DNA of 56,734 bases from Oscillospiraceae bacterium (GTDB taxonomy: Bacteria; Bacillota; Clostridia; Oscillospirales; Oscillospiraceae): contig JAFZRS010000016.1 in assembly GCA_017619715.1 (NCBI GenBank), positions 1-56,734 on the forward strand. Direction: 5' to 3'. Position numbers and translations under genes: made by a program. This document shows, piece by piece, positions 2,622-18,579 of this stretch (within the stretch, counting starts at the first letter, position 1; every line of letters starts with the position of its first letter). Under the pieces are notes generated by a model that saw nothing but the letters and a program-made list of their open reading frames with translations, was not told where the DNA came from and ran no database searches.

Positions 2622-3563
2622 TCAGAACAGGGAAATCTCATTGTCGGTGGCTTTGCGCACCGTAAAGTTTACGCTGAGCAGCAAAGCCAGATTGATAACC
2701 GTGTTGAACAGGCCCACGGCGGCGCCGTAGGAGAAGCTGCGGAAGCTCGACATACCCACCTTGTAAACGTAGGTAGAGATTACTTCGGATACCGACGTGT
2801 TGAGGGGGGACTGCAGCAGATACGCCTTTTCAAAGCCGACGGCGATGACCTGCGTGCAACGCAGGATGAACTGAATGGCAATGGTGGGGAGAATGGCGGG
2901 AATATCCACGTGCCACATACGCTTCAATCGGGAGGCGCCGTCGATCTGCGCCGCCTCATGAAGCTCCGGGGACACCGAGGACAGCGCCGCCATGTAAATA
3001 ATGGAGCTCCATCCCAGCGTTTGCCACACACCCGACCACACATAGATGTGGCGGAATGCCTGCGCCGAAGCCCGGAAGTCCACCGGGTAACCAAAGCCGC
3101 CCAACATACGGTATACATTTCCGTAAATGCCGCTGACCGGGCTTAAGAGCATGGAGATGATACCTACCATTACGCTAATGGAGATAAAATGGGGAATATA
3201 TGCCACCGTCTGCACTACCTTGGTGTATCTTTCACTTTTGATGGCGTGCAGGATCAGTGCAAAAATGATGGGGAGCGGAAATGTCGCCAGTGAATACAGC
3301 GACAGGATCAGCGTGTTGGAAAACACCTGCCCGAACTGATAGTTGGACAGAAACTGTTCAAACCATTTCAGTCCTACCCACTCGCTCCCCATAATACCGT
3401 GGAGGGGTCGGTAATCCCGAAATGCCACCTGTACGCCGTACATCGGGATAAAATGGAAAACCAGAAGATACGCAACCGGCAACAGCACGAACAGGTGCAA
3501 CTGCCACTGTCGCTTAAACAGTCTCCACCATCTCTTTCGCTTCACTTGACTTATCTCCTTCAT
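2622..3563 (-). CDS. ABC importer permease, LplB/YteP type
   Basis: This 313-residue protein has a basic cytoplasmic N-terminus (VKRKRWWRLFKRQW), a first membrane helix, the family phrase FHFIPMYGVQVAFRDY, about six membrane segments and the EAA loop HEAAQIDGASRLKRMWHVDIP. It is the partner of the LplC-type permease just downstream, and together they form the membrane channel of a CUT1-type importer. The binding protein is the lipoprotein encoded at 11876-13483, separated from the permeases by the MBL and giant GLUG genes, which is an unusual insertion into a normally compact binding-protein/permease/permease order. A strong stem-loop lies just upstream (3591-3626). Confidence 0.92.
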   Translation of the reverse strand: MKEISQVKRKRWWRLFKRQWQLHLFVLLPVAYLLVFHFIPMYGVQVAFRDYRPLHGIMGSEWVGLKWFEQFLSNYQFGQVFSNTLILSLYSLATFPLPIIFALILHAIKSERYTKVVQTVAYIPHFISISVMVGIISMLLSPVSGIYGNVYRMLGGFGYPVDFRASAQAFRHIYVWSGVWQTLGWSSIIYMAALSSVSPELHEAAQIDGASRLKRMWHVDIPAILPTIAIQFILRCTQVIAVGFEKAYLLQSPLNTSVSEVISTYVYKVGMSSFRSFSYGAAVGLFNTVINLALLLSVNFTVRKATDNEISLF

Positions 3564-3665: not shown

Positions 3666-6600
3666 TCACTCTGCCGACTCGTCAAAATACGCGGGGACCG
3701 GCACATCGTCCGCTCTGACCACCCATGCGGCAGTGAAATCAAATCCGTACGGTGTGAGTGTAGCCTGCGCGGCAGCGGCTTCAAGTGCGGACGGAGCTAC
3801 GGAAGTCGCAGCGCCGCTGGAGGGCCAGATCTTGACGTCACTTTCTCTTGCGGACAGAACACACCGGACGTTGACAGTGCCTGTCACTTGCGATCCAACG
3901 GGGTTGAGCGTATTAACGAAGCTGTTGAGGCAGTTGGAAATGTTCACCGTGGGAGCGCCGCTACCGCGAGATCTTCCCACGAAGATACCCTGAACGCCGC
4001 CTGTTGCTGACGCGCTACCCTCGTTCCAGCAGCCCGTAATGTTCACCACGGTGGACGAGGCAGTCGTTTCAACCAGGCCTACCATGCTGCCCGTTCCCAC
4101 GTCCGAGCTGGACACGGTGCCGCTGCTCTTGCAATTCTCAATGGTCAGCGTTGTGTTGGCGCTGTTGGCGGCTTGACCCAGGATGCCGCCGACATAATAG
4201 CCGGAGCCGGTCACAGTGCCGTCAAAGTGCAGACCGGAGTACGCGACGCTCGTTCCGCCGTCAAAGTAACCGACCATACCGCCGATGGCAGTAGCCTTGG
4301 TACCCGCCGTTACGATGATAGCGTTGCTGTAAATGTTCTCGAAGTTTCCGTCGCCGTTACCGGCAATACCGCCGATCCTCGCGCCCTGTGAATAGATGTA
4401 GCTATTCTCCAGGCGGAAGTTCTTGACCGTGGACACGCCGCTCGTTGCGGCAAACAGACCCAGATACAGATTGCCCGTAGTGGCGCCGGTATTCTGATAC
4501 AAGCCGGAAATGGTGTGTCCGTCACCGTCGAAGACGCCCTTGAAGTACAAGGAGGTGGAACTGATGGACTTCCACTGGATCGGCGTGCCGCCCTTTCCGT
4601 CGGTGAAGCCTTCGGTACTGGCGGTAAAACCCGGGTTCAGATCGATGTCCGCACCCAGCTTGATGGTCTTGCCGGCAAAATTGTTGGTCCGAGACAACTC
4701 GGCAAAGCCGTACAGATCGCCGGCGTCATTGAGCACGTAGGAGCTTGCGCTCTCATCATACCAGTCTACGTTGGGGATCACGTCAGCAAAAGCCATCGGT
4801 ACGGGATAACCAACCTGGACCGCCCAATCCGTCTCAAAATCGAAACCGTACGGTGCGGCTGTGAGTGTTTTCTCCGCGGTAAAGCCTGTAATGCTCGCCA
4901 GAGAAATGCCCGGCACGTTGGGGCCGGCGCCGCCGCTGCTTTCATTCCACATATTGGCAACAGAGTCTCGCACAGACAGAACACGCTGGCAGGTGACGGT
5001 ACCTGTATTTAGTGATCCGACGGGGTAGTTCGGAATATTGTAGCTGTTGAGGCAGTCGGAAATGTTCACCGTGGGAGTACCGTTTTGAGTCCGTCCCACA
5101 AAGACGCCACAGTTACTGGGTGCCGACACCGTGCCGCTGTTCCAGCAACCTGCAATATTCACCGTTACGGACGACTTAGTCGTATTAACGATACCTACCA
5201 TGCCGCCCGCTACCGCATACGAGGTCGACACGGCGCCGCTGTTGCGGCAATTCTCAATGGTCAGCGTTGTGTTGGCGCTGTTGGCGGCTTGACCCAGGAT
5301 GCCTCCGATCCAATAGCCATCTCCCGTCAAGGTGCCGCCAAAGTGCAGATTGGAATACGTGACGTTCTTTTCTCCGTCAAAGTAGCCGATCATGCCGCCG
5401 ACTATACCGGCATCTCTACTCCCCGTTACGATGATCGCGTTGCTGTAAATATCCTGGAAGTTTCCGCAGCCATCACCGGCAATGCTGCCAAACCTCATGC
5501 CATTTGAATAGATGAAGCTGTTTTCCAAGTGGAAGTTCTTGACCGTTGACACACCGCTTGTTGCGGCAAACAGACCCAGATACAGATTGCCCGTATTGGC
5601 GCCGGTATTCTGATACAAGCCGGAAATGGTGTGTCCGTCACCGTCGAAGATGCCCTTGAAGTAGTTGGAGGTGGAACCGATGGACTTCCACTGGATCGGC
5701 GTGCCGTCTTTCCCGTCGGTAAAGCCGTCGGTGGTGGCGATAAAGCCGGGGTTCAGGTCAATATCCGCGCCCAGCTTGATGGTCTTGCCGGCAAAATTGT
5801 CGGTCTGGGACTGTTCGGCAAAGCCGTACAGATCGCCGATGTCCTTCAGGATGTACGGATCGCTCTCCGTTCCCGCCGCTTCATACATCCAGCTAAAGTC
5901 GATCATCTTATCCTTGTTCGCCAGACTGGGAGCGATGGCGGCAAAGGACTTCAGGATCGGCGTACCCGATTCGTCTGTCTCCGCCGTTCCTTCATCGTCC
6001 ACTACGACCGCCCAATACCGATCGAAGTCAAGAACCGTCCACTGATATCCGTCGTAGCCCTTGATGGTATCGACGGCGACCTGTTTGATCGTACCGGTCT
6101 GATTGCCGGAAGAACCGCTGGAAACGCGCTTGCAGCTCTCCGCTGTGGCATATACACCCGACACCTTGATGGTGCCGTCCGCCCAACCGTAGATCGCGCC
6201 GAAGCCGACGTTTCCGTCCGCCGCCTTTTGGCTAACCTTCACTTCGCCCACGTTGAGACTTTGCTCCAATACAACGTGTACGTTCTCCCAAATATGACCG
6301 ATGATACCGCCTGACACCGGGACAATCAGCGACGTTCCGTCTGTCTTTTGGTTATAGGTATATGCCGTGGCATCCACAACGCCTGTATGCAGGCAGTTCT
6401 TCATGCTTCCCGTCTTTGCCGCGTACAAGCCGATGATACCGCCGGTATCTCTTGCGCTGGTGGAATTGCCGGTAGCCGTCACGGTACCGTCAAACCAACA
6501 GTTGTTGATAGTCACGCTGTCACCGTGCAGCTGTCCGAACAAACCGCCTACACGCGCGCCGGCGCACAAAACGGTCGCATTGCTGTAAATCGTATCGAAC

Positions 6601-9600
6601 GTGCCGCCTTTTCCGCGTCCCACGATACTGCCGGTATCCGCGCCCGCCGCATTGATGTAGCTATTTAACAGGCTTACGTTTTTGATCACGGCGGTCGTCG
6701 TAGTTTCCGCGAAGAGTCCGCCAAACCTCTCGTCCGTCTTGAGGTAGATGCCGCTGATGCTGTGCATCTGCCCGTCAAAGGTTCCGGCAAACGGCTTGTT
6801 GGTACTTCCGATCTGCGTCCAGTTATAACCCGGATGCTTCATATCTTTGTTAACAACAATGTTTGCTCCTAATTTGACGGTTTTGCCCTTAAAGTCAATC
6901 TCTTTGGAAAGATCTGCAAATCCGAAAAGATCTGCCGAATCTTTCAGGACGTACTCCGTCTTGCTTGCATCGTACCAACTGTTATCGATCATCTTTTCGA
7001 TCCCTGCGAGGCTCGGTATCGAACCTGCGAAGGACCGTAGGACCGGCGTGCTTTCCGGCTTGACCGCCCAGTACTTTGCAAAGTCAAGGTACGTCCAGCG
7101 GTATGCGTCGTAGCCCTTGATGCTGTCCGCCGAGACCTGCCGGATCCTGCCCGTCTGCTTGGAGGAGGAACCGCTGGAAACGCGCTTGCAGCTCTCCGCT
7201 GTGGCATACGTGTCCACCACTTTGACGGTGCCGTCTGTCCAGCCGTAGATCGCGCCGAAGCCGATGTTTCCGTCCGCCGCCTTCTGGCTGACCTTCACTT
7301 CGCCTGCGTTGAGACTGCGTCCCACATCGACGTGTACGTTCTCCCAGATCTGACCGATGAGACCGCCTGCCAGCGGAACGATCAATGACGTTCCGTCTGT
7401 TTTCTGGTTATAGGTATACGCCGTGGCATCCACAATGCCTGTATTCAAACAGTTGGTCATGCTGCCCGTCTTTGCCGCGTACAGACCGAGGATACCGCCG
7501 GTAGTTCTGGCGCTGGTGGAGTTGCCGGTGCCCGTCACGGCTCCGTCAAACCAGCAGTTATTGATGGTGATCTTGTCACCGTAGAGCTGACCGAACATAC
7601 CGCCCACGCGGGAATCGGTGCACCGAACAATGGCGTTGCTGTAAATCGTATCGAACACTCCGCCTTCACCGCGCCCGACGATACTGCCGCAATCCCCGCC
7701 CTCTGCTTCTATGTATGTATTCAGCAATCTGACGTTCTTGATGACCGCTGTAGGCGTGGTCTTTGCAAAGACGCCGCCGAATCTGTCTTCTGTCTTAACA
7801 TAGATACCGCTGATGCTGTGCATTTGCCCGTCAAAGGTGCCGGCAAACGGCAGATTTGAGTTTCCGATCTCAATCCACTTGTTTTGCGGCGCATTCTGCG
7901 CCCAAGCGCTTGCATAACCGGTATTTACAACGATATTGGCCGCCAGCTTGATCGTCTTGCCCTTAAAGTTCGTATCGTAGGACAGCAGGGCAAAGCCGTG
8001 CAGATCCTGCAGCGAATCCAGAACATATACGCTCTTGTCCGGGCTGTACCAACTCACGTCATAGAGCTTCTTTACACCCGAAAGATCCGGCGCGTCGCTT
8101 ACGAAGGACTTCAAAACCGGGGTGCTGTTCTTAACGACCGCCCAGTACTCGTCAAAGTCAAGGAGTGTTCTCTGATACGCTCCATAGCCGTTGAGTATGC
8201 TCGCGTCGACGACGATCAGCTCTCCTGCTGTACCGTGTATCATCGAATGGAGATCCGAACTGTCAGCCACTGCGTACGTTTTGGAGACCTTCACAGAGCC
8301 GTCCACGTATCCGGCGATAGAGCCGTATCCGATGGACGCGACTTCATTTACTTTTACCTTACCAACGTTCAGGCAACCCTCGATCGTCATCGTCTTCTTT
8401 GTGGGAATGTAGCCGATCAGTCCGCCCGCCAAAGGCACAATGTTTTTTGCGTTGTTTGGATTTGGTGTGGTGAATTTTGTTGCATCTACAGTACCGGTGT
8501 TCAGACAGTTCTTCATAACGCTGTCGGTAAGCACAACGCCCACCAAACCGCCGGTATAGCGCGTGGACAGAGAATTGCTGGTATTGGTCACCTGTCCGTC
8601 AAACCAGCAGTTGTTCATCAAGATACCGCTGTCACCGGGGATCTGACCGACGATACCGCCGAGGTTGATATTCGAGCCGCGGATGATGGCGTTACTGTAG
8701 ATCGTATCGAAGTTGCCGCGTCCGCGACCAGCGATACTGCCGGAGCTTTGTCCGCCAAACTCATAGTAGCTGTTTAATACCTTCAGGTTTTTAATGACAG
8801 ACAATTCCGTGGTCGCCGAGAACAATCCGCTGTAATTCGAATTGGTCTTGCACCAGATGCCGCTGATGCTGTGCATCTGCCCGTCAAAGACGCCGTTGAA
8901 CGGATAATCGCCCGTGCTGATGGGGTTCCAGCTGTATTCCGGCTCCTTTTCCGCCCAGTCCGCCGCATCGCCTTCATTTATTACAATGTCTGCACCTAAT
9001 TTGACTGTTACACCGGAGAAATCTGTTTTGCGGGACAATATGGTGAAGCCGTACAACTGTTCGGCGTTCATGATGACGCACTCTGTCTGGCCCTTTTCGT
9101 ACCAGCTCGTGTCATACTTTTTCGCGATCCCCTCCAGGCTGGGACTGCTGCCGGTAAAATACTTCAATACGGGGGTGCCGTCTTCGACAACGGACCAATA
9201 GTAATCAAAATCCAACGTCGTCCACTGATAGCCGCCATACCCGGTCAACATGCGTCTGGTGTACTCGATCGGGAATCCGACCGTAGCGCCCGCTTTATAG
9301 CCAACCAGCGCTTTATAACATTCCCGCAGCGCATACACGTCATTGATGCTGGCGGCGCCCGCTACCTGACCAATCACAGAACCAACCGCGATCCCGTATT
9401 CATTTGTAATATCGCCGACAGACAGGCAATCGCTCATCTGAACTCTGCCGGAGTCCATAACAACCCCTATAATACCGCCCAGATTAACGCCGGTGTTTTT
9501 CAGTGTAGAAGAAAGTGAACCGGTATTCAGACAATGCTCTATTTTGCAAGTGCCGCCCGTTTTTCCTACCTGGCCGACAACACCTCCGGCATAGTGTCCT

Positions 9601-10160
9601 ACGTTGCCTTCCACTCTCAATACGCCGTCAAACCAGCAGTTAGTGATGGTATGTGCGCCACTCGCGTCCAGACAACCGATAATACCGCCCGTGTTCTCCT
9701 TGTAGGACAGCACGACCGCGTTACTATAAATGGAGTCGAAGGTACCGCCGCCGTTACTCGAAATGCTGCCGGCGCCTTCGTTAAAGTCGCTGTAAATAAA
9801 ACTGTTCACCAGGCGGAAATCTTTAATCGTGCAGCTTGCCTTCGTATCCGTGAACATTCCCGCTTTGCAAAACTCCGTCTTTCCGTATCGCACGATATAA
9901 ACGAAGCCATAGGAGCAGATACCGCTGATGGTATGTCCCTGCCCGTCAAATGTACCTGCAAAATTCTTAATCGGCTTCCACAGGTGTTCCGGGACGACTT
10001 CTTCCCAATCCGCTGCATTGCCCTCGTTATCCGTAATATCCGCGCCGAGTTTGATGGTCTGTCCCTCGAAATCGTAATATTCCGAAAGCGCCGCGAACTC
10101 GCGCATCTCTTTGATCGTATTGATGGTAAACTCTGTGCCGCTCTCATCGTACCAGGCTAC
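3666..10160 (-). repeat. Six direct coding repeats inside the giant gene
   Basis: Six in-frame modules of about 1.05-1.15 kb are visible, with boundaries near 9110, 8060, 6985, 5895 and 4768. Units 3 and 4 (about 8060-5895) are the most alike, sharing long runs such as the segment encoding KVSQKAADGN and AESCKRVSSGSS. Units 5 and 6 form a second close pair (shared DIDLNPGF, GLYQNTGA and ATSGVSTVKNF). The pairing indicates recent tandem duplication and a site prone to recombination or misassembly. Confidence 0.85.
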
Positions 10161-10283
10161 GTTCAGCACATTCCCTTTGCTTACAGGTTCTCTATTTGCC
10201 AAAACCCATATTCCCACCGATGCGGCCGCAAGCAAAACAAAGACACCAATGCATAATAAAATGGTTTTCGTCTTCTTACTCAT
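3666..10283 (-). CDS. Giant GLUG-repeat surface protein (2205 aa)
   Basis: The start at 10283 (MSKKTKTILL) is chosen because GGGAGGAG lies seven bases upstream; an upstream ATG at 10301 overlaps that site. Residues about 5-28 form one hydrophobic segment (signal peptide or anchor). The rest is six modules of about 350-370 residues. Each opens with a W-Y-D/E type start, L-x-x-L-x-GFA-x-LS and a F-x-G-K-T-x-KLGA-D/N-I strand. Each then carries FDGQxHTISG, YSNAI, NNCWFDG and repeated GGIxG/NxGxV units typical of GLUG/beta-helix-like surface proteins. Modules begin near residues 15, 390, 740, 1098, 1462 and 1838. No LPXTG or other sorting motif is seen at the C-terminus, so it may be held by its N-terminal segment or be released. 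An adhesin or polymer-binding role is inferred only from repeat type and location. Confidence 0.9.
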   Translation of the reverse strand: MSKKTKTILLCIGVFVLLAAASVGIWVLANREPVSKGNVLNVAWYDESGTEFTINTIKEMREFAALSEYYDFEGQTIKLGADITDNEGNAADWEEVVPEHLWKPIKNFAGTFDGQGHTISGICSYGFVYIVRYGKTEFCKAGMFTDTKASCTIKDFRLVNSFIYSDFNEGAGSISSNGGGTFDSIYSNAVVLSYKENTGGIIGCLDASGAHTITNCWFDGVLRVEGNVGHYAGGVVGQVGKTGGTCKIEHCLNTGSLSSTLKNTGVNLGGIIGVVMDSGRVQMSDCLSVGDITNEYGIAVGSVIGQVAGAASINDVYALRECYKALVGYKAGATVGFPIEYTRRMLTGYGGYQWTTLDFDYYWSVVEDGTPVLKYFTGSSPSLEGIAKKYDTSWYEKGQTECVIMNAEQLYGFTILSRKTDFSGVTVKLGADIVINEGDAADWAEKEPEYSWNPISTGDYPFNGVFDGQMHSISGIWCKTNSNYSGLFSATTELSVIKNLKVLNSYYEFGGQSSGSIAGRGRGNFDTIYSNAIIRGSNINLGGIVGQIPGDSGILMNNCWFDGQVTNTSNSLSTRYTGGLVGVVLTDSVMKNCLNTGTVDATKFTTPNPNNAKNIVPLAGGLIGYIPTKKTMTIEGCLNVGKVKVNEVASIGYGSIAGYVDGSVKVSKTYAVADSSDLHSMIHGTAGELIVVDASILNGYGAYQRTLLDFDEYWAVVKNSTPVLKSFVSDAPDLSGVKKLYDVSWYSPDKSVYVLDSLQDLHGFALLSYDTNFKGKTIKLAANIVVNTGYASAWAQNAPQNKWIEIGNSNLPFAGTFDGQMHSISGIYVKTEDRFGGVFAKTTPTAVIKNVRLLNTYIEAEGGDCGSIVGRGEGGVFDTIYSNAIVRCTDSRVGGMFGQLYGDKITINNCWFDGAVTGTGNSTSARTTGGILGLYAAKTGSMTNCLNTGIVDATAYTYNQKTDGTSLIVPLAGGLIGQIWENVHVDVGRSLNAGEVKVSQKAADGNIGFGAIYGWTDGTVKVVDTYATAESCKRVSSGSSSKQTGRIRQVSADSIKGYDAYRWTYLDFAKYWAVKPESTPVLRSFAGSIPSLAGIEKMIDNSWYDASKTEYVLKDSADLFGFADLSKEIDFKGKTVKLGANIVVNKDMKHPGYNWTQIGSTNKPFAGTFDGQMHSISGIYLKTDERFGGLFAETTTTAVIKNVSLLNSYINAAGADTGSIVGRGKGGTFDTIYSNATVLCAGARVGGLFGQLHGDSVTINNCWFDGTVTATGNSTSARDTGGIIGLYAAKTGSMKNCLHTGVVDATAYTYNQKTDGTSLIVPVSGGIIGHIWENVHVVLEQSLNVGEVKVSQKAADGNVGFGAIYGWADGTIKVSGVYATAESCKRVSSGSSGNQTGTIKQVAVDTIKGYDGYQWTVLDFDRYWAVVVDDEGTAETDESGTPILKSFAAIAPSLANKDKMIDFSWMYEAAGTESDPYILKDIGDLYGFAEQSQTDNFAGKTIKLGADIDLNPGFIATTDGFTDGKDGTPIQWKSIGSTSNYFKGIFDGDGHTISGLYQNTGANTGNLYLGLFAATSGVSTVKNFHLENSFIYSNGMRFGSIAGDGCGNFQDIYSNAIIVTGSRDAGIVGGMIGYFDGEKNVTYSNLHFGGTLTGDGYWIGGILGQAANSANTTLTIENCRNSGAVSTSYAVAGGMVGIVNTTKSSVTVNIAGCWNSGTVSAPSNCGVFVGRTQNGTPTVNISDCLNSYNIPNYPVGSLNTGTVTCQRVLSVRDSVANMWNESSGGAGPNVPGISLASITGFTAEKTLTAAPYGFDFETDWAVQVGYPVPMAFADVIPNVDWYDESASSYVLNDAGDLYGFAELSRTNNFAGKTIKLGADIDLNPGFTASTEGFTDGKGGTPIQWKSISSTSLYFKGVFDGDGHTISGLYQNTGATTGNLYLGLFAATSGVSTVKNFRLENSYIYSQGARIGGIAGNGDGNFENIYSNAIIVTAGTKATAIGGMVGYFDGGTSVAYSGLHFDGTVTGSGYYVGGILGQAANSANTTLTIENCKSSGTVSSSDVGTGSMVGLVETTASSTVVNITGCWNEGSASATGGVQGIFVGRSRGSGAPTVNISNCLNSFVNTLNPVGSQVTGTVNVRCVLSARESDVKIWPSSGAATSVAPSALEAAAAQATLTPYGFDFTAAWVVRADDVPVPAYFDESAE

Positions 10284-10304
10284 ATCAAGTTCTCCTCCCA
10301 TCTC

Positions 10305-11696
10305 CTATTCTTCTGTGGAAAACTTCGGCGGAAGCTTCTCTGCGGTTCCAACCTGATACGGGAATGTCAATATTCTGGTCCCATCACCAAACGCAAATGA
10401 TTCGGGGGCAAGCGACATCAAATGCTCATTCTGAGGTTTACGTCCTGTGAAAGAAGCCGGACCGGCACCTCCTGTCACTACCTTTGCCGGATATACTACT
10501 GTTTGGATTGTGCCTAAACGATTTGTAATTTGTTTATACACATTGATGCCATGATGCGGCACTTGATAAATAGTCAAGTTAAAATATTCCTTATCGTACA
10601 TATCGGTGTAAATAAGCTGACTGCTCCAGTCCGCATCACCGGTTAACAGCACCTTCTGCCCTTCTATCGTCATCATGGTGACGATAGAGGACGCGTTGAA
10701 CGTATCCCAATCCTCCGCCGGTGATAACTCCGGGGTATAGATAATGTCGATGGTAATATCTTCGAAATAGTATCTTTCGCCCAAACGGGGACGATACATC
10801 TTCGCCTGACCGCCGTCAGACGCTTTCAGGTACTCCGACGCCGCATTGCAGAACTTCAAGTTCCACGGCACACCGTCAACGTCTCCGTTGATCGTCACCG
10901 ACTCGGCAGGCGGGTCAAAGAAATATACGCTGTCAATATACATGCGGTCGGCATAGCTCCTGTTTTCGGCAATGCCCGTGAGAATCCCCATATGGTCACC
11001 ATGCGCATGACTGATAAACCATGCGTCAATGATCGGTTTCTGTCCTTCCGGAACCAATGATTCCAGATAATTAACTAAATGCGGGAGTTCTACTTTCGTA
11101 CCCCCGTCATACAGCAGGAAGTGACCGCTCTTGAGTTCGAAAACAAATCCCATTCCGACCGATTCAAACTCATAAACGTGCATCTTTATTTTCGCGTTAG
11201 TCTGCGTACTTACCGCGCTGTCATCGCGGTACAGGCGATCCGATAACACCGCGTTTTGAGCCGCCGTGATCGTGGTCTGTTTCAGGTTCTTGATATAGGA
11301 AACGACCACCAGTAAGTTCTCTTTTTGGTAATGGGACGTATATACATAGCCTTCCAGCCCCTGCTCCCCGTTATCCAAAACCTTCTTGAATCCTTCTTTT
11401 TCCAAAACGGAAAGGTAATCTTGATAATCCTCCATCGCCGTATCTTCGGCAATGATCATGTAATCACCGCCGCCGGCTTCGATCGCATCCTGATAAACGA
11501 CGTCTTCCCGCGTCATGGCGGGAACGTCGGCAAAAATTTCAAATTCCGAGTATCTCTTTAATCCCTTGTCGTTTTCTTCCGCCACTTTTTCTGCCTGCGC
11601 CCTCTGGTTGCTGGCAGAATACAAATATACCCCTGCACCGACGATAAGCACCGCAGCAAGCAAGCTTAACAGTATAACGGTTCTTTTTTTGTTCAT
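10305..11696 (-). CDS. Membrane-anchored metallo-beta-lactamase-fold hydrolase (ComEC/Rec2-like)
   Basis: This is a 463-residue protein with an N-terminal hydrophobic segment (about residues 6-28) placing the rest outside the cell. Residues about 185-440 are an MBL fold: LLYDGGT strand, the zinc motif SHAHGDHMG (H230, H232, D234, H235), LLTGDAD near 360 and VPHHG near 390. These match the ComEC/Rec2-type branch of MBL hydrolases but without the competence membrane domains. An N-terminal region of about 150 residues before the fold is unassigned. It ends with TAG 21 bp before the giant GLUG gene, so the two are probably translated together. An extracellular phosphodiesterase or esterase activity is plausible; the substrate is unknown. 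Confidence 0.85.
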   Translation of the reverse strand: MNKKRTVILLSLLAAVLIVGAGVYLYSASNQRAQAEKVAEENDKGLKRYSEFEIFADVPAMTREDVVYQDAIEAGGGDYMIIAEDTAMEDYQDYLSVLEKEGFKKVLDNGEQGLEGYVYTSHYQKENLLVVVSYIKNLKQTTITAAQNAVLSDRLYRDDSAVSTQTNAKIKMHVYEFESVGMGFVFELKSGHFLLYDGGTKVELPHLVNYLESLVPEGQKPIIDAWFISHAHGDHMGILTGIAENRSYADRMYIDSVYFFDPPAESVTINGDVDGVPWNLKFCNAASEYLKASDGGQAKMYRPRLGERYYFEDITIDIIYTPELSPAEDWDTFNASSIVTMMTIEGQKVLLTGDADWSSQLIYTDMYDKEYFNLTIYQVPHHGINVYKQITNRLGTIQTVVYPAKVVTGGAGPASFTGRKPQNEHLMSLAPESFAFGDGTRILTFPYQVGTAEKLPPKFSTEE

Positions 11697-11875: not shown

Positions 11876-13483
11876 TTACTTTCTGTCGTACGCCTTCTGG
11901 CAAATCTCCAACAACTCGCTGCGTCCTTGGCCATCCAACGTCGTCAGGAAATCGTTCCACGCTGCATCATCCTTCGGATCCTTTTCTCCTGAAACAAACA
12001 GTATAATTTGTTCACTGATATAGCTTGAGATGTTTCCTGCTTTCATTTCTCTAATTGCATACTCTTCCGGCGTGTAGACAAGTTTCGTTGCCCTTTCCGC
12101 CGGCTTCTTACCTTCCTGTACCAACTGCCACTGCTCAGCTACCAGACGCTCACTTTCCACGGCATTACTTGTAACCGCCGCTTCCGGAACGTCCAAATAA
12201 TTCCATTGTGTCATAATTCCGCACATATTCCGACACCATGTTGAATTACCGCTGAAAAACGCTTCTCCATTCACGATATTTACATACGAATCTGTTCCGC
12301 AGGCATTCTTCCCTTCTTTGTACGTCCAATCCACGTCTTTTTCTCCGAAACGCTGGCGCGAGATTGTTTCATCCAAATAGAAGGTATCAATCAGCTTCAT
12401 GGCCGCTGCCGGATATTGGCAATCCTTTGTAATGCAGGCAGTCCATGCAATACTGGGATCGTTCACGATCGTGTAACCGCCTTTTCCGGTAGCGTCGCTC
12501 AGTGCCGGCAATGCGGTAAATTCCTTCTTGGCGTCGGTCGCCGGGTTCGTCATGACCACGTGGTTACCCGTGAAGATTCCCACTTTCGAGGAGGACCCCA
12601 CCGGGCTGATGAGGTTCTTATATTCTGAGGTAGAATTGATGGAGAAGCTGAGCTTGCTGTAACCGCCCGCCTTCACCAGCTCGTTGGCAAAGATCACGCC
12701 CTGTCTGAACTCATCGGTCTTAATCGGGTCCCATACTTTTCCGTCTGTCACGTTGAACGTGAGCTGCTCGTAACGCACGAATCCATTCAACAGATAATTG
12801 ATAACGCCCTCACTGCCGAGCATCGGGATCTCATCCGCCTCGCCGTTGCCGTTGGGATCCTGCGTCATAAATGCGGTCAGCACCGTCTTGAGTTCCTCTG
12901 TGGTGGTCGGCACCTGCAGTCCCAGCTTATTCAGCCAGTTCTTGTTAATATAGGCAACACTCTGTAAGTCATCAAACGCTTCGCAAAGAACTCTGGGCAT
13001 ACCATAGTAAGCGCCGGTTTCCAAATGCTTACTCTTATCAACCACGTATTCTTTTGTGGCGGCGTCCAAATTCTCTAACTGCGCTTTATAATTCGGAGCA
13101 TACGCTTCGATATAATCCGTCAAATCAATAAAGTAGCCGTCTTCGCCGTATTGGTTCATTATGTACTGATCGAACTCAAAGCCGAGGATCACGTCCGGCA
13201 ACTTTTCATTCGCGCTGCACATAAGCGCTAATTGCTGCAAGTACTCTGATCTGGAGTTTGAAAAAAGCGTGAACTCTAACTTAACGTTTGCCTGTTCTTC
13301 CAAATATTTTGTAAATGCATTCTCGTAATAGTCCACTACATTTGAATTCTGCGGAATACCGACGGTAAGCGTAACCGTCTCACCCGGCAATTCCTCCACG
13401 CCTGCTGGTTTCTTCGCTCCGCATCCTGCAAAAACACCAAGCGCCATTACAAGAGCCAACGCTAAACAAATATACTTTTTCAT
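11876..13483 (-). CDS. Solute-binding lipoprotein of the ABC importer
   Basis: The start at 13483 follows GAAGGTG; an upstream in-frame start would add an implausible tail. The 535-residue product begins with a lipoprotein signal ending in LGVFAGC (lipid-carrying Cys 21), then KKPAGVEELPGETVTLTVGIPQNSNVVDYYENAFTKYLEEQANV, a start typical of family 1 (LplA/YtcQ-like) binding proteins. The length fits the large binding proteins that go with LplB/LplC permeases. It is the first clear gene after the GntR-type operators at 13750-13781 and heads the minus-strand operon. It should capture an oligosaccharide or related solute outside the membrane; the ligand is not predictable from sequence. Confidence 0.92.
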   Translation of the reverse strand: MKKYICLALALVMALGVFAGCGAKKPAGVEELPGETVTLTVGIPQNSNVVDYYENAFTKYLEEQANVKLEFTLFSNSRSEYLQQLALMCSANEKLPDVILGFEFDQYIMNQYGEDGYFIDLTDYIEAYAPNYKAQLENLDAATKEYVVDKSKHLETGAYYGMPRVLCEAFDDLQSVAYINKNWLNKLGLQVPTTTEELKTVLTAFMTQDPNGNGEADEIPMLGSEGVINYLLNGFVRYEQLTFNVTDGKVWDPIKTDEFRQGVIFANELVKAGGYSKLSFSINSTSEYKNLISPVGSSSKVGIFTGNHVVMTNPATDAKKEFTALPALSDATGKGGYTIVNDPSIAWTACITKDCQYPAAAMKLIDTFYLDETISRQRFGEKDVDWTYKEGKNACGTDSYVNIVNGEAFFSGNSTWCRNMCGIMTQWNYLDVPEAAVTSNAVESERLVAEQWQLVQEGKKPAERATKLVYTPEEYAIREMKAGNISSYISEQIILFVSGEKDPKDDAAWNDFLTTLDGQGRSELLEICQKAYDRK

Positions 13484-13580
13484 TTTATAAAAGCACCTTC
13501 CTCTCTTTTTATAATCAACAAGCATCACTTTTACAGCTTGATTGATAACAGCTTAATACCGAAACGAGTGCTGTCAAACT

Positions 13581-13667
13581 TTATGCACAAATCAGTTTGC
13601 GACCCCGGCGAATGACGTCAGCCGCCAAGGGGACGCCGTCCATCGCCTTCAGACGCTTTCCGTTCAT
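13581..13667 (-). CDS. Putative 28-aa ORF or gene remnant
   Basis: An ATG with AAGGAG only three bases upstream opens a 28-codon frame (starts MNGKRLKAMDG, ends RRGRKLICA) right behind the operator-bearing promoter and 97 bp before the lipoprotein gene. The spacing of the SD is short. It could be a leader peptide, the stump of a deleted first gene of the operon, or chance. I do not recognise it. Confidence 0.3.
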   Translation of the reverse strand: MNGKRLKAMDGVPLAADVIRRGRKLICA

Positions 13668-13749
13668 GTTCTCCTTGTTGCTCCACTGTGTTCCGGCAAC
13701 GCGCCCCAGTCCGGCGCAGGCCGGTATCAACGCCGATTTGCGCCTTATA

Positions 13750-13760
13750 TTGTACGACAA
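13750..13760. promoter_or_regulatory. FadR-type GntR operator, distal copy (lipoprotein operon)
   Basis: TTGTACGACAA is an exact match to the TNGTNNNACNA pattern of FadR-subfamily GntR regulators. It lies downstream of the -10, 21 bp from a second identical site. Confidence 0.75.
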
Positions 13761-13770
13761 TTTTATAATA

Positions 13771-13781
13771 TTGTACGACAA
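13771..13781. promoter_or_regulatory. FadR-type GntR operator, proximal copy (lipoprotein operon)
   Basis: A second TTGTACGACAA sits just downstream of the -10 hexamer, where a bound protein would block transcription initiation. The centre-to-centre distance of 21 bp (two helix turns) puts both sites on one DNA face. Confidence 0.75.
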
Positions 13782-13785
13782 TTTT

Positions 13786-13814
13786 AGTATAGTGTGCCTC
13801 TGTCCGCTTGTCAA
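13786..13814 (-). promoter_or_regulatory. Sigma-A promoter of the lipoprotein/GLUG operon
   Basis: On the minus strand: TTGACA (13809-13814), 17-bp spacer, TATACT (13786-13791). The flanks are almost the same as those of the promoter at 16966-16994. Confidence 0.8.
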
Positions 13815-14102
13815 GTATTTCTCCTGTGTTTTGTCAATGTTTGTGTAAGACTACAAACGGTATTGGGCAGTTAAACGAAAAAAGAGAAGGGATGCATCCT
13901 CATCGGATATAGTTGCGTTACGACACACCGGCCCTAACCGAGAAAGGGGCGATACCCTTCATTCGCCATACTTTTGTGCGCTTTTTTCAACAGATTGTGT
14001 GCCTCGCGGGCGCGCCGGAGATGATCCATGGGCTATAGCGTTTTTTGCATTTCGCTGCAGCCCCTCTGTGGGGCGTATTTGCTTTACTGCGAAACGGGCG
14101 GG

Positions 14103-15578
14103 TCAGTTTATCTTGACACCGAATACGCCTTGTTCCAGCTCCGCCACGGAGAGACCGCGGCGCTGAGGGGAGGAGGCGAGGTACAGCGTGATGCCAGTGG
14201 CCATCCAGCCTGCCAGCATCCATGTGGACATGGCGCCGGAGTAGAAGGGGCTGGCGGGGATAAACGAGAGGATCAGCACGGCGGTAGTGAGAATGGCGGC
14301 GAACAGTCCCGTCGCCTTTCCGCCGGGGATCTTGTAGGGACGCTCCATAAAGGGATACTTGGTCCGCAGACGCACCAGCGACCAGCAGGTGGCGGCCCAG
14401 GAGATCAAAAACGCCAGAGCGGAAAAACAGGTAATACTGTCGATCATGTTTGCGCCCAACAGCGGTCCGATCAGCGAGAGGATCAAACACACCACCTGAC
14501 CGCGCACCGCCACGCCACGCTTATTCTGCCGGGCGAAGAAGGTGGGGATCAGCCGTCCGCGCCCCATGCCCATCAGCAAATTGGCGGAGGCGGTGAAAAA
14601 GCCGTTCCATGTGGTGAACAAGCCCGCCAGAGCGCCGATGGTCAATGTCCAGTAGAGGATCTGACCGGTCATACCGGGATAGAGGCTCTTGAACATGGCG
14701 GCGGCGGCGGGACGCTCCATGCCGGAAAACTCCTGCCACGGCCAGGCATAGCCAAAGGCGAAGAGCAAGAACGCATAGAATACGCACGCCAGCGCCACGG
14801 ACAGTACCACGGTCTTGCCCACAGACTTCACGTTGCCGCCGGCTTCCTCCACGCCCTGAGGAATGGTCTCGAAGCCTGCCAGGAAGTAGCACGCCTGCAC
14901 GATACCGGCAAAGCAGCCGCCCAGCAGCGTGTAGTGAGAAACCTGCTTGAGCCCCTCGCCCGCGCCGTAGATGGCGGGGTTGCTCACATCGTAGATGGGC
15001 TGCAGGTTCTCGATCCTGCCGCCGATGAGCGCGGCGACAGCGCCGATGAGCGCGGCGCCCACCAAAATGAAACACAGGATTTTCTGCACCAGCGCCGCCG
15101 CCGCCAGACCCCGCATATTCAGGGCGAACAGTAAAAGCGAGCAGACCGTGCCAATGATAACGGTGGCAAGGTGGATATCGTACCCCATGACCGTATACAA
15201 AACGGGTCCGGACTTGATGCCGGGAATGAGGTAACCCAACACGTCCGTAATCTGAATTGCCTCCCAGGGGATAATGGCGATCATGCCGCCCAGAGACGCC
15301 CAGCCGGAGATAATGGAGATTTTGCTGTTGAACGCCTTATAGGCAAACGCCATGCCGCCGCCTGCCACGGGCATCATGGGAACCAGCTCGGCATAGCACA
15401 GCCCAATGGGCACCATCATGAGCATGACGATAAGGTACCCCAGCGCGGCGGGAATCGGACCGCCGCAGTTGGTCATCCAGCCATTGATGGAGACCGCCCA
15501 GCCCACGCCGACGATAGCGCCGAAGCCGATGCAGAAAAAGTCGACGGCACTGACGCCTTTTCTCTTTACAGTACGCAT
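14103..15578 (-). CDS. APC-superfamily amino-acid permease
   Basis: The start at 15578 (MRTVKRKGVSAVDFF) follows GGAGGAGG. The 491-residue protein is highly hydrophobic with about 12 membrane segments and the APC-type first helix containing FGAIVGVGWAV. It should be a proton- or cation-coupled amino-acid or amine transporter in the cytoplasmic membrane. It lies 212 bp downstream of an opine-dehydrogenase-family gene in the same direction and behind the same operator-controlled promoter. This suggests it imports the substrate of that enzyme, such as an amino acid or an N-carboxyalkyl amino acid, or exports its product. Direction and substrate are not shown by the sequence. Confidence 0.88.
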   Translation of the reverse strand: MRTVKRKGVSAVDFFCIGFGAIVGVGWAVSINGWMTNCGGPIPAALGYLIVMLMMVPIGLCYAELVPMMPVAGGGMAFAYKAFNSKISIISGWASLGGMIAIIPWEAIQITDVLGYLIPGIKSGPVLYTVMGYDIHLATVIIGTVCSLLLFALNMRGLAAAALVQKILCFILVGAALIGAVAALIGGRIENLQPIYDVSNPAIYGAGEGLKQVSHYTLLGGCFAGIVQACYFLAGFETIPQGVEEAGGNVKSVGKTVVLSVALACVFYAFLLFAFGYAWPWQEFSGMERPAAAAMFKSLYPGMTGQILYWTLTIGALAGLFTTWNGFFTASANLLMGMGRGRLIPTFFARQNKRGVAVRGQVVCLILSLIGPLLGANMIDSITCFSALAFLISWAATCWSLVRLRTKYPFMERPYKIPGGKATGLFAAILTTAVLILSFIPASPFYSGAMSTWMLAGWMATGITLYLASSPQRRGLSVAELEQGVFGVKIN

Positions 15579-15670
15579 AGTGCTTTCCTCCTCCGGGTTG
15601 ATCCTCGCCCGACCACACACACGGTCCGGGCAGGGAATCCCCGTCCGAAATCGTCAGTTTTACGTATAAT

Positions 15671-15710
15671 AGCAAGCAGAGCAGACAACGATCCGGCCTG
15701 CTCTGTTGCT
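15671..15710 (-). other. Intercistronic stem-loop between dehydrogenase and permease genes
   Basis: AGCAA-g-CAGAGCAG pairs with CTGCTCTG-TTGCT, a 13-bp stem with one bulge. It is placed like the hairpins at 11746 and 3591, between genes of an operator-controlled transcript. A second small dyad (TTCACCCCGGGTGAA) lies near 15738-15752. Confidence 0.55.
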
Positions 15711-15790
15711 GTCGCCACCCTATACGGAGAAGATCACTTCACCCGGGGTGAAAATTTGTTTTTGAATAAAAGGGACTCTCGACGCTGCAA

Positions 15791-16903
15791 TCAGTCCTGA
15801 TAGCCCTCCATGACGAACTGCTTCATCTGCTCGCCCGTCATGCCGTCCAGACCCAGCTTGTCCAGCGTGCGGCCTGTGACCCAGTAATCCTCGTTGCGCA
15901 GAGCGGACGCCAGATTGGCGATAGAGTCCATGATCGGGGTCTTGACGCCCAGCGCACGACCCAGATTGGCGCAAAAAACCAGGGAGCAGGGGGCGTCCTC
16001 GGTGAGGTAGCGGCCGCTTAAATCATTGGGGCCTTCGATATCCATGAAGATACCGATACTGCCCTGATAGGCGGAATACAGGTCGTCGGACTTGGGGCAA
16101 TAGCCGGTGATGTACAGACGGTCGAGAATGTTGATCTTCTCATAACCAAGCGCCTCGCACAACGCCATACGCTCCTCGTTGACCTTCCAGACCACGCGGG
16201 CAACGGAAGGCGTGATGCCCTCTTTGTAGTGGAAATGCTTGTGGTAATACTCGATCTTGCCGGCGTTGAGCACCACCGGAGCGGGGTGACTGTCAATGTT
16301 GCCGTTGTTCAGAGCGGTCTCCAGCACGTCCTTCATCATGGTAATGGAGTCGAACAGGGGCTTGACCACATCGAACAGTTCCTGATTGTACTTGGCAGGG
16401 AAAGCGGAGAACCAGATGACCGGGTCGCGCATCAGGATCTTGACGGTGTTCTCGTTGATCTTGCGAGCCGCGTAGGGAAGCGTGTTTACTTCGCAGATCT
16501 TGACCTTCTGGAACACGCCGGCCTCGTGGAAGACCTTACCGTATACCAGACCGCCGCCGCAGCTGCCGGGAACCAGGAAAATAATCATGCCTTCCCGCAC
16601 GTGGGGCACCAGGCTCTTTGCCACAGCCTCCTGCGCGAAAGCGGGGGAAATGGGCATAACCAGATCGGCATCCGCCAGCGCATCCGCCAGATCGGTGGTG
16701 ACCTTCTGCAGCTTGGCTGCGCCTACGGGGCCTACGCCCTCCAGATTGATGATGCCTGTGTCCTTAATGCCGGCGATGCTGGAAGCAAACTTCGGATCTT
16801 CGTAGAGCGTGACTTCAAAGCCGCGCAGGATCAGATCGGCCGCCGCCGCAAAGCCGCCGTTGCCGCCGCCCAAAATAGTAATTTTCTTCACACCTGTTGC
16901 CAT
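15791..16903 (-). CDS. NAD/NADP octopine/nopaline (opine) dehydrogenase family protein
   Basis: This 370-residue protein has an N-terminal Rossmann motif (KKITILGGGNGGFAAAADL, residues 6-24) and a C-terminal helical domain with HPAPVVLNAG and YYHKHF, the layout of opine dehydrogenases. The family catalyses reversible NAD(P)-dependent joining of an amino acid and a 2-oxo acid into a secondary amine (opine), or the reverse. The start ATG follows GGAGG. It is the first gene of a two-gene unit with the APC permease and lies behind a promoter with two GntR operators, divergent from the GntR gene. The nearest relative in the window is the protein at 49004-50092, clearly a distant paralogue. The true substrate is unknown; bacterial members often catabolise opine-like compounds. 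Confidence 0.85.
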   Translation of the reverse strand: MATGVKKITILGGGNGGFAAAADLILRGFEVTLYEDPKFASSIAGIKDTGIINLEGVGPVGAAKLQKVTTDLADALADADLVMPISPAFAQEAVAKSLVPHVREGMIIFLVPGSCGGGLVYGKVFHEAGVFQKVKICEVNTLPYAARKINENTVKILMRDPVIWFSAFPAKYNQELFDVVKPLFDSITMMKDVLETALNNGNIDSHPAPVVLNAGKIEYYHKHFHYKEGITPSVARVVWKVNEERMALCEALGYEKINILDRLYITGYCPKSDDLYSAYQGSIGIFMDIEGPNDLSGRYLTEDAPCSLVFCANLGRALGVKTPIMDSIANLASALRNEDYWVTGRTLDKLGLDGMTGEQMKQFVMEGYQD

Positions 16904-16930
16904 AACAAAGGCCTCCTACACTCACTTGTA

Positions 16931-16941
16931 TTGTTTGACAA
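16931..16941. promoter_or_regulatory. FadR-type GntR operator, distal copy (dehydrogenase unit)
   Basis: TTGTTTGACAA matches TNGTNNNACNA and lies exactly 21 bp from the second site, the same geometry as at 13750-13781. Confidence 0.72.
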
Positions 16942-16951
16942 TTTGATGATA

Positions 16952-16962
16952 TTGTCCGACAA
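16952..16962. promoter_or_regulatory. FadR-type GntR operator, proximal copy (dehydrogenase unit)
   Basis: TTGTCCGACAA lies immediately downstream of the -10 of the minus-strand promoter, in a position suited to repression. The GntR gene starts about 165 bp away on the other strand. Confidence 0.75.
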
Positions 16963-16965
16963 TTG

Positions 16966-16994
16966 AGTATAGTGTTCCTGTATTTGTTTGTCAA
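16966..16994 (-). promoter_or_regulatory. Sigma-A promoter of the dehydrogenase/permease unit
   Basis: TTGACA (16989-16994), 17-bp spacer, TATACT (16966-16971) on the minus strand. Hexamers, spacing and parts of the flanks match the promoter at 13786-13814. Confidence 0.82.
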
Positions 16995-17056
16995 GTATTT
17001 CCTTGCCGCTTTATCGAAAACTTTGTCAAAAACTTGGCTTTATTTTCTGTTAAATC

Positions 17057-17084: not shown

Positions 17085-17126
17085 ATACTATAATATGTAA
17101 TGATCGCACAGAAAGAAGGCATCGGA

Positions 17127-17825
17127 TTGGTAATTTTACGTGAAAACACTTCCGCCGCGGCGGTGTACGAATACATATACGGGGAGATCACCCATCGGCG
17201 GCTTTGCCCGGGGCAACTGCTGACGGAGAGTTATTTGTGTGCCTGCATGAACGTGGGACGCAGTCCTGTTCGGCTCGCCTTGCAGCAGTTGGCGAAGGAC
17301 GGCTTTGTAGAGCTGCGTGCCAACCGCAGCCCCATTGTGACCTGCTTTACCCAAAAACAACTCCAACAGCTCTATTCCCTACGGGAGGTGTTTTTGGAAT
17401 ATGCCCTCCGGCAGACAATCGACCTGTATGAGAAGGAAGATATTGCAACCCTCACCGCCTTTCTTTCCGATATGGAGCGTGCCTTTCAATTCCGCGCTTT
17501 CGACGATTATATCCAGGCGGTGGCGGGATTCTACCGCGCTATCATCGACAAGGCGGATAATCCCTACTTAACGGAAAGTGCCGCGGTGGTCATTAACCGG
17601 ATCAATGTCTATATCTGCCTCTACGACAATTTCTACAGCGTCAAGCGGTTGAAGACTCTTTCCATGCAAAGTCGCATGGTACAAGGGATTCGAGAGGGTA
17701 AGCTGGGGGTGGTGCTGCGCGCCCATCAAAAACTCAGCAACGAGGTAGTCGCCGCCTACGATCAGATGGTCCTCCGTAATTTGCCGAGCGGTCACTACAA
17801 TGAAAAACGGGCTGAAGCGCGCTGA
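17127..17825 (+). CDS. GntR-family transcriptional regulator, FadR (FCD) subfamily
   Basis: This is a 232-residue DNA-binding protein. The N-terminal winged helix shows LCPGQLLTESYLCACMNVG-RSPVRLALQQLAKDGFVEL, and the C-terminal two-thirds is an all-helical FCD ligand-binding domain starting near QLQQLYSLREVFLEYAL. I chose the TTG at 17127 because GAAAGAAGG is placed correctly before it. An in-frame ATG at 17100 lies only about nine bases after the predicted transcription start. The gene is divergent from the opine-dehydrogenase gene. FadR-subfamily proteins bind TNGTNNNACNA, and two such pairs occur in front of the dehydrogenase unit and the lipoprotein/GLUG operon. I therefore infer that it represses both, with an organic or amino-acid-like effector relieving binding. 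Confidence 0.85.
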   Translation: MVILRENTSAAAVYEYIYGEITHRRLCPGQLLTESYLCACMNVGRSPVRLALQQLAKDGFVELRANRSPIVTCFTQKQLQQLYSLREVFLEYALRQTIDLYEKEDIATLTAFLSDMERAFQFRAFDDYIQAVAGFYRAIIDKADNPYLTESAAVVINRINVYICLYDNFYSVKRLKTLSMQSRMVQGIREGKLGVVLRAHQKLSNEVVAAYDQMVLRNLPSGHYNEKRAEAR

Positions 17826-18078: not shown

Positions 18079-18579
18079 ATGTATATAGATACCATCCGGG
18101 AGATTCAGGCGTTGGAAGAGCAGCTGGAACAGGAAAAGATGCGCTGCCGCCAGCAGGCGAATCTGAGGCTGCTGGAAAACGCACTGGACAATCTCAATCG
18201 TTTTGCGCCGCAAAAGGCCGGGTTGCTCGCACCCCGTCCCGCCGTGGCAGAAGACGGACGGACAGGTACTGTGTCTTTGCGGCTGGGTTCCCGGGAGCAA
18301 ACGGAAAAACTGACCGAGCTGCTGACACAGTTCGACTGTGCCTACGAATACAGTGATCCCGCCGAGGAGGACGTGCCGGAGGTGCCGGCAACGCTGAAAA
18401 ACAACCGCTTTACCCGCTCCATGAACTGCATTACCGAGCAATACTCTCTCCCCGCCTACAACGGCGTGGATCCCAACCCCATTATGGCGCCGTTCTTTAT
18501 CCTGTTTTTCGGTATGATGATGGCGGACATGGCGTACGGACTGCTGATGATCTTAGGCTCGGCGCTGATCCTGGTATAG
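18079..18579 (+). pseudogene. Remnant of V-type ATP synthase subunit I
   Basis: The frame encodes 166 residues. An N-terminal coiled-coil stretch (IREIQALEEQLEQEKMRCRQ) is followed by a fold-like segment and then the hallmark LKNNRF...PAYNGVDPNPIMAPFFILFFGMMMADMAYGL, which is the first part of the membrane domain of subunit I of V/A-type ATPases. A normal subunit I has about 600-650 residues. Here most of the soluble domain and nearly all of the membrane domain are missing, and no other V-ATPase gene is near. It still has a plausible ribosome site (AAAGGCGGTG) and an open frame, so expression of a mini-protein cannot be excluded, but decay of a lost operon is the simplest reading. Confidence 0.75.

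Follow-up and report, generated by a model that had tools for sequence, protein, structure and literature searches.

In the accessible parts of two earlier reports, TNGTNNNACNA is quoted as the operator consensus of the FadR subfamily of GntR regulators (PMC2230225, PMC9145765), and one member of that subfamily, AnsR of Corynebacterium glutamicum, is described in the accessible part of the latter as acting on an operator related to TNGTNNNACNA that lies just downstream of the transcription start and is read there as a roadblock, with a divergent arrangement of regulator and target reported for Rhodococcus (PMC9145765). Opine dehydrogenases, for their part, are known from CENDH (N-(1-D-carboxyethyl)-L-norvaline dehydrogenase) of Arthrobacter sp. 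1C (1bg6) and, together with transport genes, from the staphylopine-like opine metallophore systems, as far as the available part of the source covers them (PMC7438024). Here we analyze a stretch of 56,734 nt from an Oscillospiraceae bacterium (GCA_017619715.1, contig JAFZRS010000016.1, positions 1-56,734 of the forward strand; hereafter the window), which encodes a FadR/FCD-type GntR regulator beside an opine dehydrogenase unit and close to an operon for a giant, likely surface-exposed protein and an importer (the surface/uptake operon). We consider it highly probable, from the comparisons presented below, that this one nearby regulator joins the two units, with binding and repression predicted at both.

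The arrangement likely represents a known kind of regulon, small and of the FadR type, with a new pair of targets and a visible origin that is probably a promoter copy. It differs from that of AnsR in featuring two strict palindromes spaced 21 bp apart, an opine dehydrogenase as the target, binding that is predicted, and a second, apparently copied promoter that brings in the surface/uptake operon. Literature searches on GntR operators at opine dehydrogenase genes returned no such report, the one paper to name both an opine dehydrogenase and GntR being unrelated by the start of its abstract; the broader octopine literature held nothing on the subject among the matches listed, and the search on opine dehydrogenases of gut Clostridia gave a zincophore paper only.

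Paired operators at two promoters

The promoters of the dehydrogenase unit (16966-16994) and of the surface/uptake operon (13786-13814) both read TTGACA-N17-TATACT on the minus strand, as an earlier, sequence-only reading of the window had proposed, and lie 3.2 kb apart. Each matches 11 of 12 positions, a score reached by no other among the 15 promoter-like sites between 400 and 18500; the total is close to the shuffle mean of 14.7, and it is the rank alone that is notable. Just downstream of each -10 element two palindromes stand exactly 21 bp apart, which bears out the proposal of near-identical modules: at the dehydrogenase unit the predicted operators O1 (16952-16962, TTGTCGGACAA on the minus strand) and O2 (16931-16941, TTGTCAAACAA on the minus strand) begin 3 and 24 nt past the -10, whereas at the surface/uptake operon O1 (13771-13781) and O2 (13750-13760), both TTGTCGTACAA on the minus strand, begin 4 and 25 nt past it. 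The flanks, likewise claimed to be similar, form a 39-nt repeat with 82% identity between the two promoters. In the window the word TTGTNNNACAA is found at these four sites only (13750, 13771, 16931 and 16952), against a shuffle expectation of 0.53, and none of 100 shuffles reached four.

Many unrelated pairs of this spacing elsewhere in the genome, which the sequence-only reading had named as evidence against itself, were not encountered. With up to two mismatches allowed, the own genome (1.32 Mb in 34 contigs, 98% complete) holds the 21-bp pair at the two promoters only, both times without a mismatch, while the reversed pattern used as a control gives one pair at up to two mismatches and none at up to one; at a spacing of 22 bp neither the word nor the control forms a pair. 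Single TTGTNNNACAA words, at 13 places versus 21 for the control, occur at chance level, so that it is the exact pairs and not the single words that exceed chance. The extended word ATTGTNNNACAAT occurs at six places (control: none), namely the four window sites plus C11:35080 and C34:140305, the latter two with different cores. Across 300 genomes of the family, the own one included, pairs with at most one mismatch turned up at one place in each of nine others, in one of which (G035) the pair is exact and located at a promoter; the reversed pattern at the same threshold matched in 17 genomes.

A near-identical regulator (89% identity) was found in one of the 59 relatives searched with the GntR query, Oscillospiraceae bacterium UBA1230 (G017), which belongs to the same genus. 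Its gene order is that of the window, the nine proteins of the locus are 81-98% identical, with the giant protein lowest, and its genome carries no more than two operator pairs, both exact and both at the same two promoters, the reversed control giving two at up to two mismatches. A merely fortuitous resemblance between the operators would fit the chance-level frequency of single words and the one or two control pairs with up to two mismatches per genome, yet it is extremely improbable and is rejected on the genome-wide counts of exact pairs in the own genome and UBA1230: both exact pairs of the own genome lie at promoters and both recur in the second species.

Between the two species all 32 positions of the operator arms and all 24 of the promoter hexamers are identical, as compared to 71 of the 96 remaining bases (arms versus remaining bases, Fisher p 0.0005, with columns treated as independent). 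At the surface-operon promoter taken separately, 16 of 16 arm positions are kept and 31 of 48 others (Fisher p 0.0035), and in O2 the core has changed with the arms kept. These counts bear directly on whether the dehydrogenase unit alone is controlled and the second promoter is a copy with relic operators, a reading suggested by the resemblance of the two promoters to copies of each other: both promoters are present in both species, and the surface-operon arms have remained unchanged while 17 of those 48 bases have not, which makes relic operators improbable.

A further relative, G013 (65% complete), matches the last 39 residues of the regulator only. Relative to the window, a single gap in this genome brings the permease gene and the 3' end of gntR directly together (L057 6372-8038, G013:C21), the dehydrogenase, the operators and most of gntR having gone together; the same contig carries a related surface operon at another place, and this is without the site.

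The operator word in a clade of GntR regulators

The gntR gene occupies 17127-17825 on the plus strand, with a likely TTG start at 17127 after AGAAAGAAGG, as judged by eye, and a reading frame that is also open from an ATG at 17100. Its product combines an N-terminal GntR winged helix (PF00392, 41.9 bits, cut-off 27) with a C-terminal FCD domain (PF07729, 36.1 bits, cut-off 24.3, profile positions 1-84 of 125), and its fold matches FCD regulators. With four TTGTNNNACAA sites of the TNGTNNNACNA type at the targets, the locus thus shows both the FadR-subfamily operator pattern and the adjacent FadR-type GntR gene that had been proposed from the letters. The gene is oriented opposite to the dehydrogenase unit; as regards possible autoregulation, the sites lie at least 165 bp upstream of its likely start at 17127. 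FCD regulators of the TM0439 type, as we take it, hold a metal in the FCD domain through an Asp and three His; in a profile alignment with 3sxy, read by eye, the His of DERLH aligns with a Tyr, that of REHKEL with a non-His residue, and the third is one column off a His.

A profile built from 25 members of the regulator's clade (A1) found 19 loci in named genomes, five of them clade members at 46-90% identity and 14 weak partial matches (26-36% over part of the query) that served as controls only. A strict site is present within 400 nt upstream of the gntR match at all five clade loci and at none of the 14 weak ones, so that the word adjoins the clade GntR in six of six clade genomes, the own one included. 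In the four distant clade genomes, where the GntR protein is 46-58% identical, the strict site falls in the intergenic region flanking gntR (shuffle probabilities of 0.002, 0.006, 0.010 and 0.0075), and the four loci fetched from them (11-21 kb) contain exactly one strict site each. Of 27 other GntR-FCD loci used as controls, only L037 shows a strict site immediately upstream of its gene.

The dehydrogenase accompanies the regulator: it is encoded in all five other clade genomes at 73-96% identity, and in six of six the promoter of its unit carries such a site. The first operator lies 3-5 nt past the dehydrogenase -10 in five of the six, and in G777 it has one mismatch. In two draws of 400 genomes from the family, the clade GntR (E < 1e-100) and the dehydrogenase (E < 1e-60) occur in the same three genomes, own included, with UBA1230 evidently outside both draws, and a search of 394 genomes drawn from the order with the A1 profile returned the own genome alone at E 1e-50. 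In Tb.RUG.154 (G774), a metagenome-assembled genome, gntR and the dehydrogenase gene are found on different contigs, and at the latter TTGTCGGACAA follows TATACT by 4 nt, a split that supports the pairing of regulator and site away from the gntR locus. In the same genome gntR adjoins the gene of a ceramidase-like lipoprotein, whose promoter has the word 24 nt past its -10.

At about 6684 of locus L144 (G774:C24) in Tb.RUG.154, a third ATTGTCCGACAAT lies about 140 nt upstream of the gene for a 1402-residue protein with an InlB-B-repeat-like domain. It directly follows what appears by eye to be a hairpin terminator belonging to a gene for an M20 peptidase, in a stretch that yielded no promoter call.

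Could the sites belong instead to another regulator using the same FadR-type word, with the adjacent GntR being incidental? Such a reading can draw on TNGTNNNACNA being the consensus of the whole FadR subfamily, in what is available of the two reports (PMC2230225, PMC9145765), on the one control locus in 27 with a strict site, and on the exact pair of G035, a genome in which the GntR query finds no match. Against it, the query matches its own gene alone in the own genome at E 0.001, the word adjoins the clade GntR in six of six genomes, none of the 14 weak GntR matches has it nearby, and three paralogous dehydrogenase loci (L124-L126; a fourth paralogue was not fetched) are free of strict sites. 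We thus regard a different regulator as unlikely and favor the adjacent GntR protein. The single regulon put forward by the sequence-only reading gains support, with the pair confined to two promoters in the genome, retained in the second species and the word found beside GntR in five of five other genomes. In other words, the same operator stands at the member promoters and is kept in relatives retaining the regulator, for the dehydrogenase unit in six of six clade genomes and for the surface operon in the two species carrying it beside the dehydrogenase unit.

Several observations weigh against this assignment. The surface operon is linked to the operator in two species of one genus only, and the dehydrogenase promoter is unchanged downstream of its -10 between these two, so that an informative footprint is obtained at the surface-operon promoter alone. 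All four distant genomes have one imperfect site at the dehydrogenase unit (1-2 mismatches; G774 and G776 have it as the second operator, G775 and G777 as the first) at a spacing of 20-22 bp, and the promoter call in G775 is unclear. The relatives are largely metagenome-assembled, and a location on another contig is compatible with nearness or misbinning. Finally, G035, from another genus, holds its exact 21-bp pair (L051 1501-1532, G035:C1) 8 and 29 nt past a good -10, ahead of genes that by eye resemble those for a P-loop protein, a ferredoxin and a 2-oxoacid oxidoreductase subunit; as the GntR query has no match there, neither the word nor its spacing is confined to this regulator. Taken with these reservations, the co-regulation of the two units is well supported by comparison.

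A proposed repression model and a probable promoter copy

We propose that the GntR regulator encoded beside the dehydrogenase promoter would bind the operator pairs at both promoters. With operators beginning 3-4 and 24-25 nt past the -10, a dimer at O1 would cover the transcription start and another, placed two helical turns further downstream at O2, would stand in the way of polymerase leaving the promoter, such that the protein likely acts as repressor and roadblock; a ligand inside the cell, which is probably an opine, an amino acid or some related metabolite, would then release it and switch both units on together. It is important to note that FadR-type regulators can also activate, as do GntR1/2 at ptsG in the available text of one report (PMC2230225), and the regulator here might activate rather than repress both promoters. 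We hold this for very improbable, since the sites begin 3-25 nt downstream of a near-consensus -10, a position favoring repression, and AnsR, whose site spans +5 to +19, is a repressor in the accessible part of its description (PMC9145765). In the preferred, repressive model the dehydrogenase would be the common target in all six clade genomes examined, and the surface/uptake operon likely joined in this lineage when the dehydrogenase promoter and its operators were copied in front of it.

Such a relation between the two promoters, which the sequence-only reading had left unmentioned, was evaluated with 20,000 shuffles at the 37 positions that belong to neither a hexamer nor an operator (10 of them upstream, 17 in the spacer and 10 between the operators). 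Of these, 26 are the same in the two own promoters, with a shuffle fraction printed as 0.0000. Against the dehydrogenase promoters of three distant genomes, the own dehydrogenase promoter agrees at 19 (G774, 0.008), 14 (G776, 0.15) and 12 (G777, 0.81) positions, and the own surface promoter at 18 (G774, 0.029), 19 (G776, 0.012) and 14 (G777, 0.36). The surface-operon promoter is hence best read, at 26 versus 12-19 positions, as a likely copy of the dehydrogenase promoter. Because both promoters are present in both species, the copying would predate their split, unless the copies later exchanged sequence.

Less favorable to a copy, three of the own-versus-distant comparisons are somewhat above shuffles (surface with G776, surface with G774, and dehydrogenase with G774), as are the two UBA1230 promoters with G776 (18 and 16 of 37; 0.027 and 0.025); the remaining distant promoter pairs have shuffle fractions above 0.1. 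There is a residual likeness to G774 and G776, yet it is below that between the two own promoters. In addition, each own promoter agrees with its UBA1230 counterpart at 26 of 37 positions as well, and with the likeness within the genome equal to that across species, a later exchange between the copies is possible.

Genes of the two units and their significance

The dehydrogenase (15791-16903, minus strand, 370 residues) matches Octopine_DH (PF02317, 1.9e-36) and aligns with CENDH 1bg6 over residues 6-360 of 369 (E 1.3e-53); this domain, together with full-length similarity to a characterized member, places it in the Octopine_DH-type, CENDH-like class. The His, Arg and Asp that we take to be the active-site residues of CENDH are kept in the alignment. 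It is accordingly a predicted opine dehydrogenase, whose NAD(P)H-dependent reaction would join an amino acid with a keto acid or take such a product apart; what sets it apart from CENDH is its linkage to an amino-acid permease and a GntR regulator. The permease gene (14103-15578, minus strand; Pfam AA_permease_2) has a frame open from 15620, and its start was placed by alignment to the UBA1230 homologue, which begins at the position of 15578. Beyond gntR, an open reading frame of 166 residues (18079-18579 of the window) matches V-type ATPase subunit I over a short internal segment only.

An opine metallophore cluster was also considered and rejected. Unlike the staphylopine-like systems, the dehydrogenase here matches Octopine_DH, and none of the 15 neighboring proteins has a nicotianamine-synthase-like Pfam match (no search for such a gene was made in the rest of the genome) or otherwise supports an assignment of this type.

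On the minus strand, the surface/uptake operon begins with a 5' leader of about 295 nt (13484-13779, start inferred from the -10), followed by genes for a solute-binding protein of 535 residues (11876-13483; Pfam SBP_bac_1; lipoprotein-like start by eye; 93% identical to its UBA1230 counterpart), a metallo-beta-lactamase-fold protein of 463 residues (10305-11696; Pfam Lactamase_B; N-terminal membrane-like segment by eye), the giant repetitive protein of 2211 residues (3666-10301), UgpA-like (2622-3563) and UgpE-like (1714-2604) permeases of the ATP-binding cassette (ABC) type, both assigned by profile match, and a CehA/McbA-like metallohydrolase of 364 residues (574-1668; NCBIfam NF038032, 72.1 bits, just below the cut-off of 80; no Pfam match). 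The giant protein, which likely is surface-exposed, has an N-terminal membrane-like segment by eye and no Pfam match above the curated cut-off. Its earlier designation as a GLUG protein does not hold: the Pfam GLUG profile finds no match at E up to 10, and what is present is 15 motifs of the GG[LIVM]xG type. A literature search on GLUG surface-protein operons gave nothing relevant among the matches listed.

A potential hairpin (ATCAATCAAGC ... GCTTGTTGAT) lies in the leader near 13510-13550, directly ahead of the ribosome site; UBA1230 retains it but not the middle of the leader. A riboswitch or other known RNA was rejected, as the window has no Rfam match at gathering thresholds and whole-leader folding is ordinary (z -0.84). 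The own leader also contains, by eye, a 28-codon frame after AAGGAG.

A paralogous surface operon is present elsewhere in the own genome (C20:36000-55000, L112), with a binding protein 40% identical, a giant open reading frame of more than 2350 codons, two permease-size genes, one of them Pfam-confirmed, and a 465-codon gene without a Pfam match at the position of the metallo-beta-lactamase-fold gene; it follows arabinose-isomerase-like, FGGY-kinase and TIM-barrel genes. The 19 kb read there contain no operator word, so that this type of operon is not tied to the operator, and the copy in the window was likely recruited to it.

A bolder interpretation, which we consider unlikely, is that the copied cassette plugged a surface-display and import operon into an opine regulon, in which the giant protein, the binding protein, the ABC importer and the two metallohydrolases would gather and trim an opine-like conjugate, for the dehydrogenase to split and the GntR protein to sense. 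N-carboxyalkyl amino acids of the glycation-product kind are an example of such conjugates. A similar, independent event may have taken place in another clade genome, Tb.RUG.154, where an operator precedes the ceramidase-like lipoprotein gene and the word is found upstream of the 1402-residue surface protein.

Together, these comparisons give a little-studied lineage of the Oscillospiraceae a candidate regulon that comprises two operons and has a defined operator and a candidate regulator, and tie a predicted opine dehydrogenase to a giant, likely surface-exposed protein and an importer. They also point to a possible route of regulon growth, whereby a whole promoter is copied with its operators before a neighboring operon, and the identity of the ligand would indicate which nutrient the system collects.

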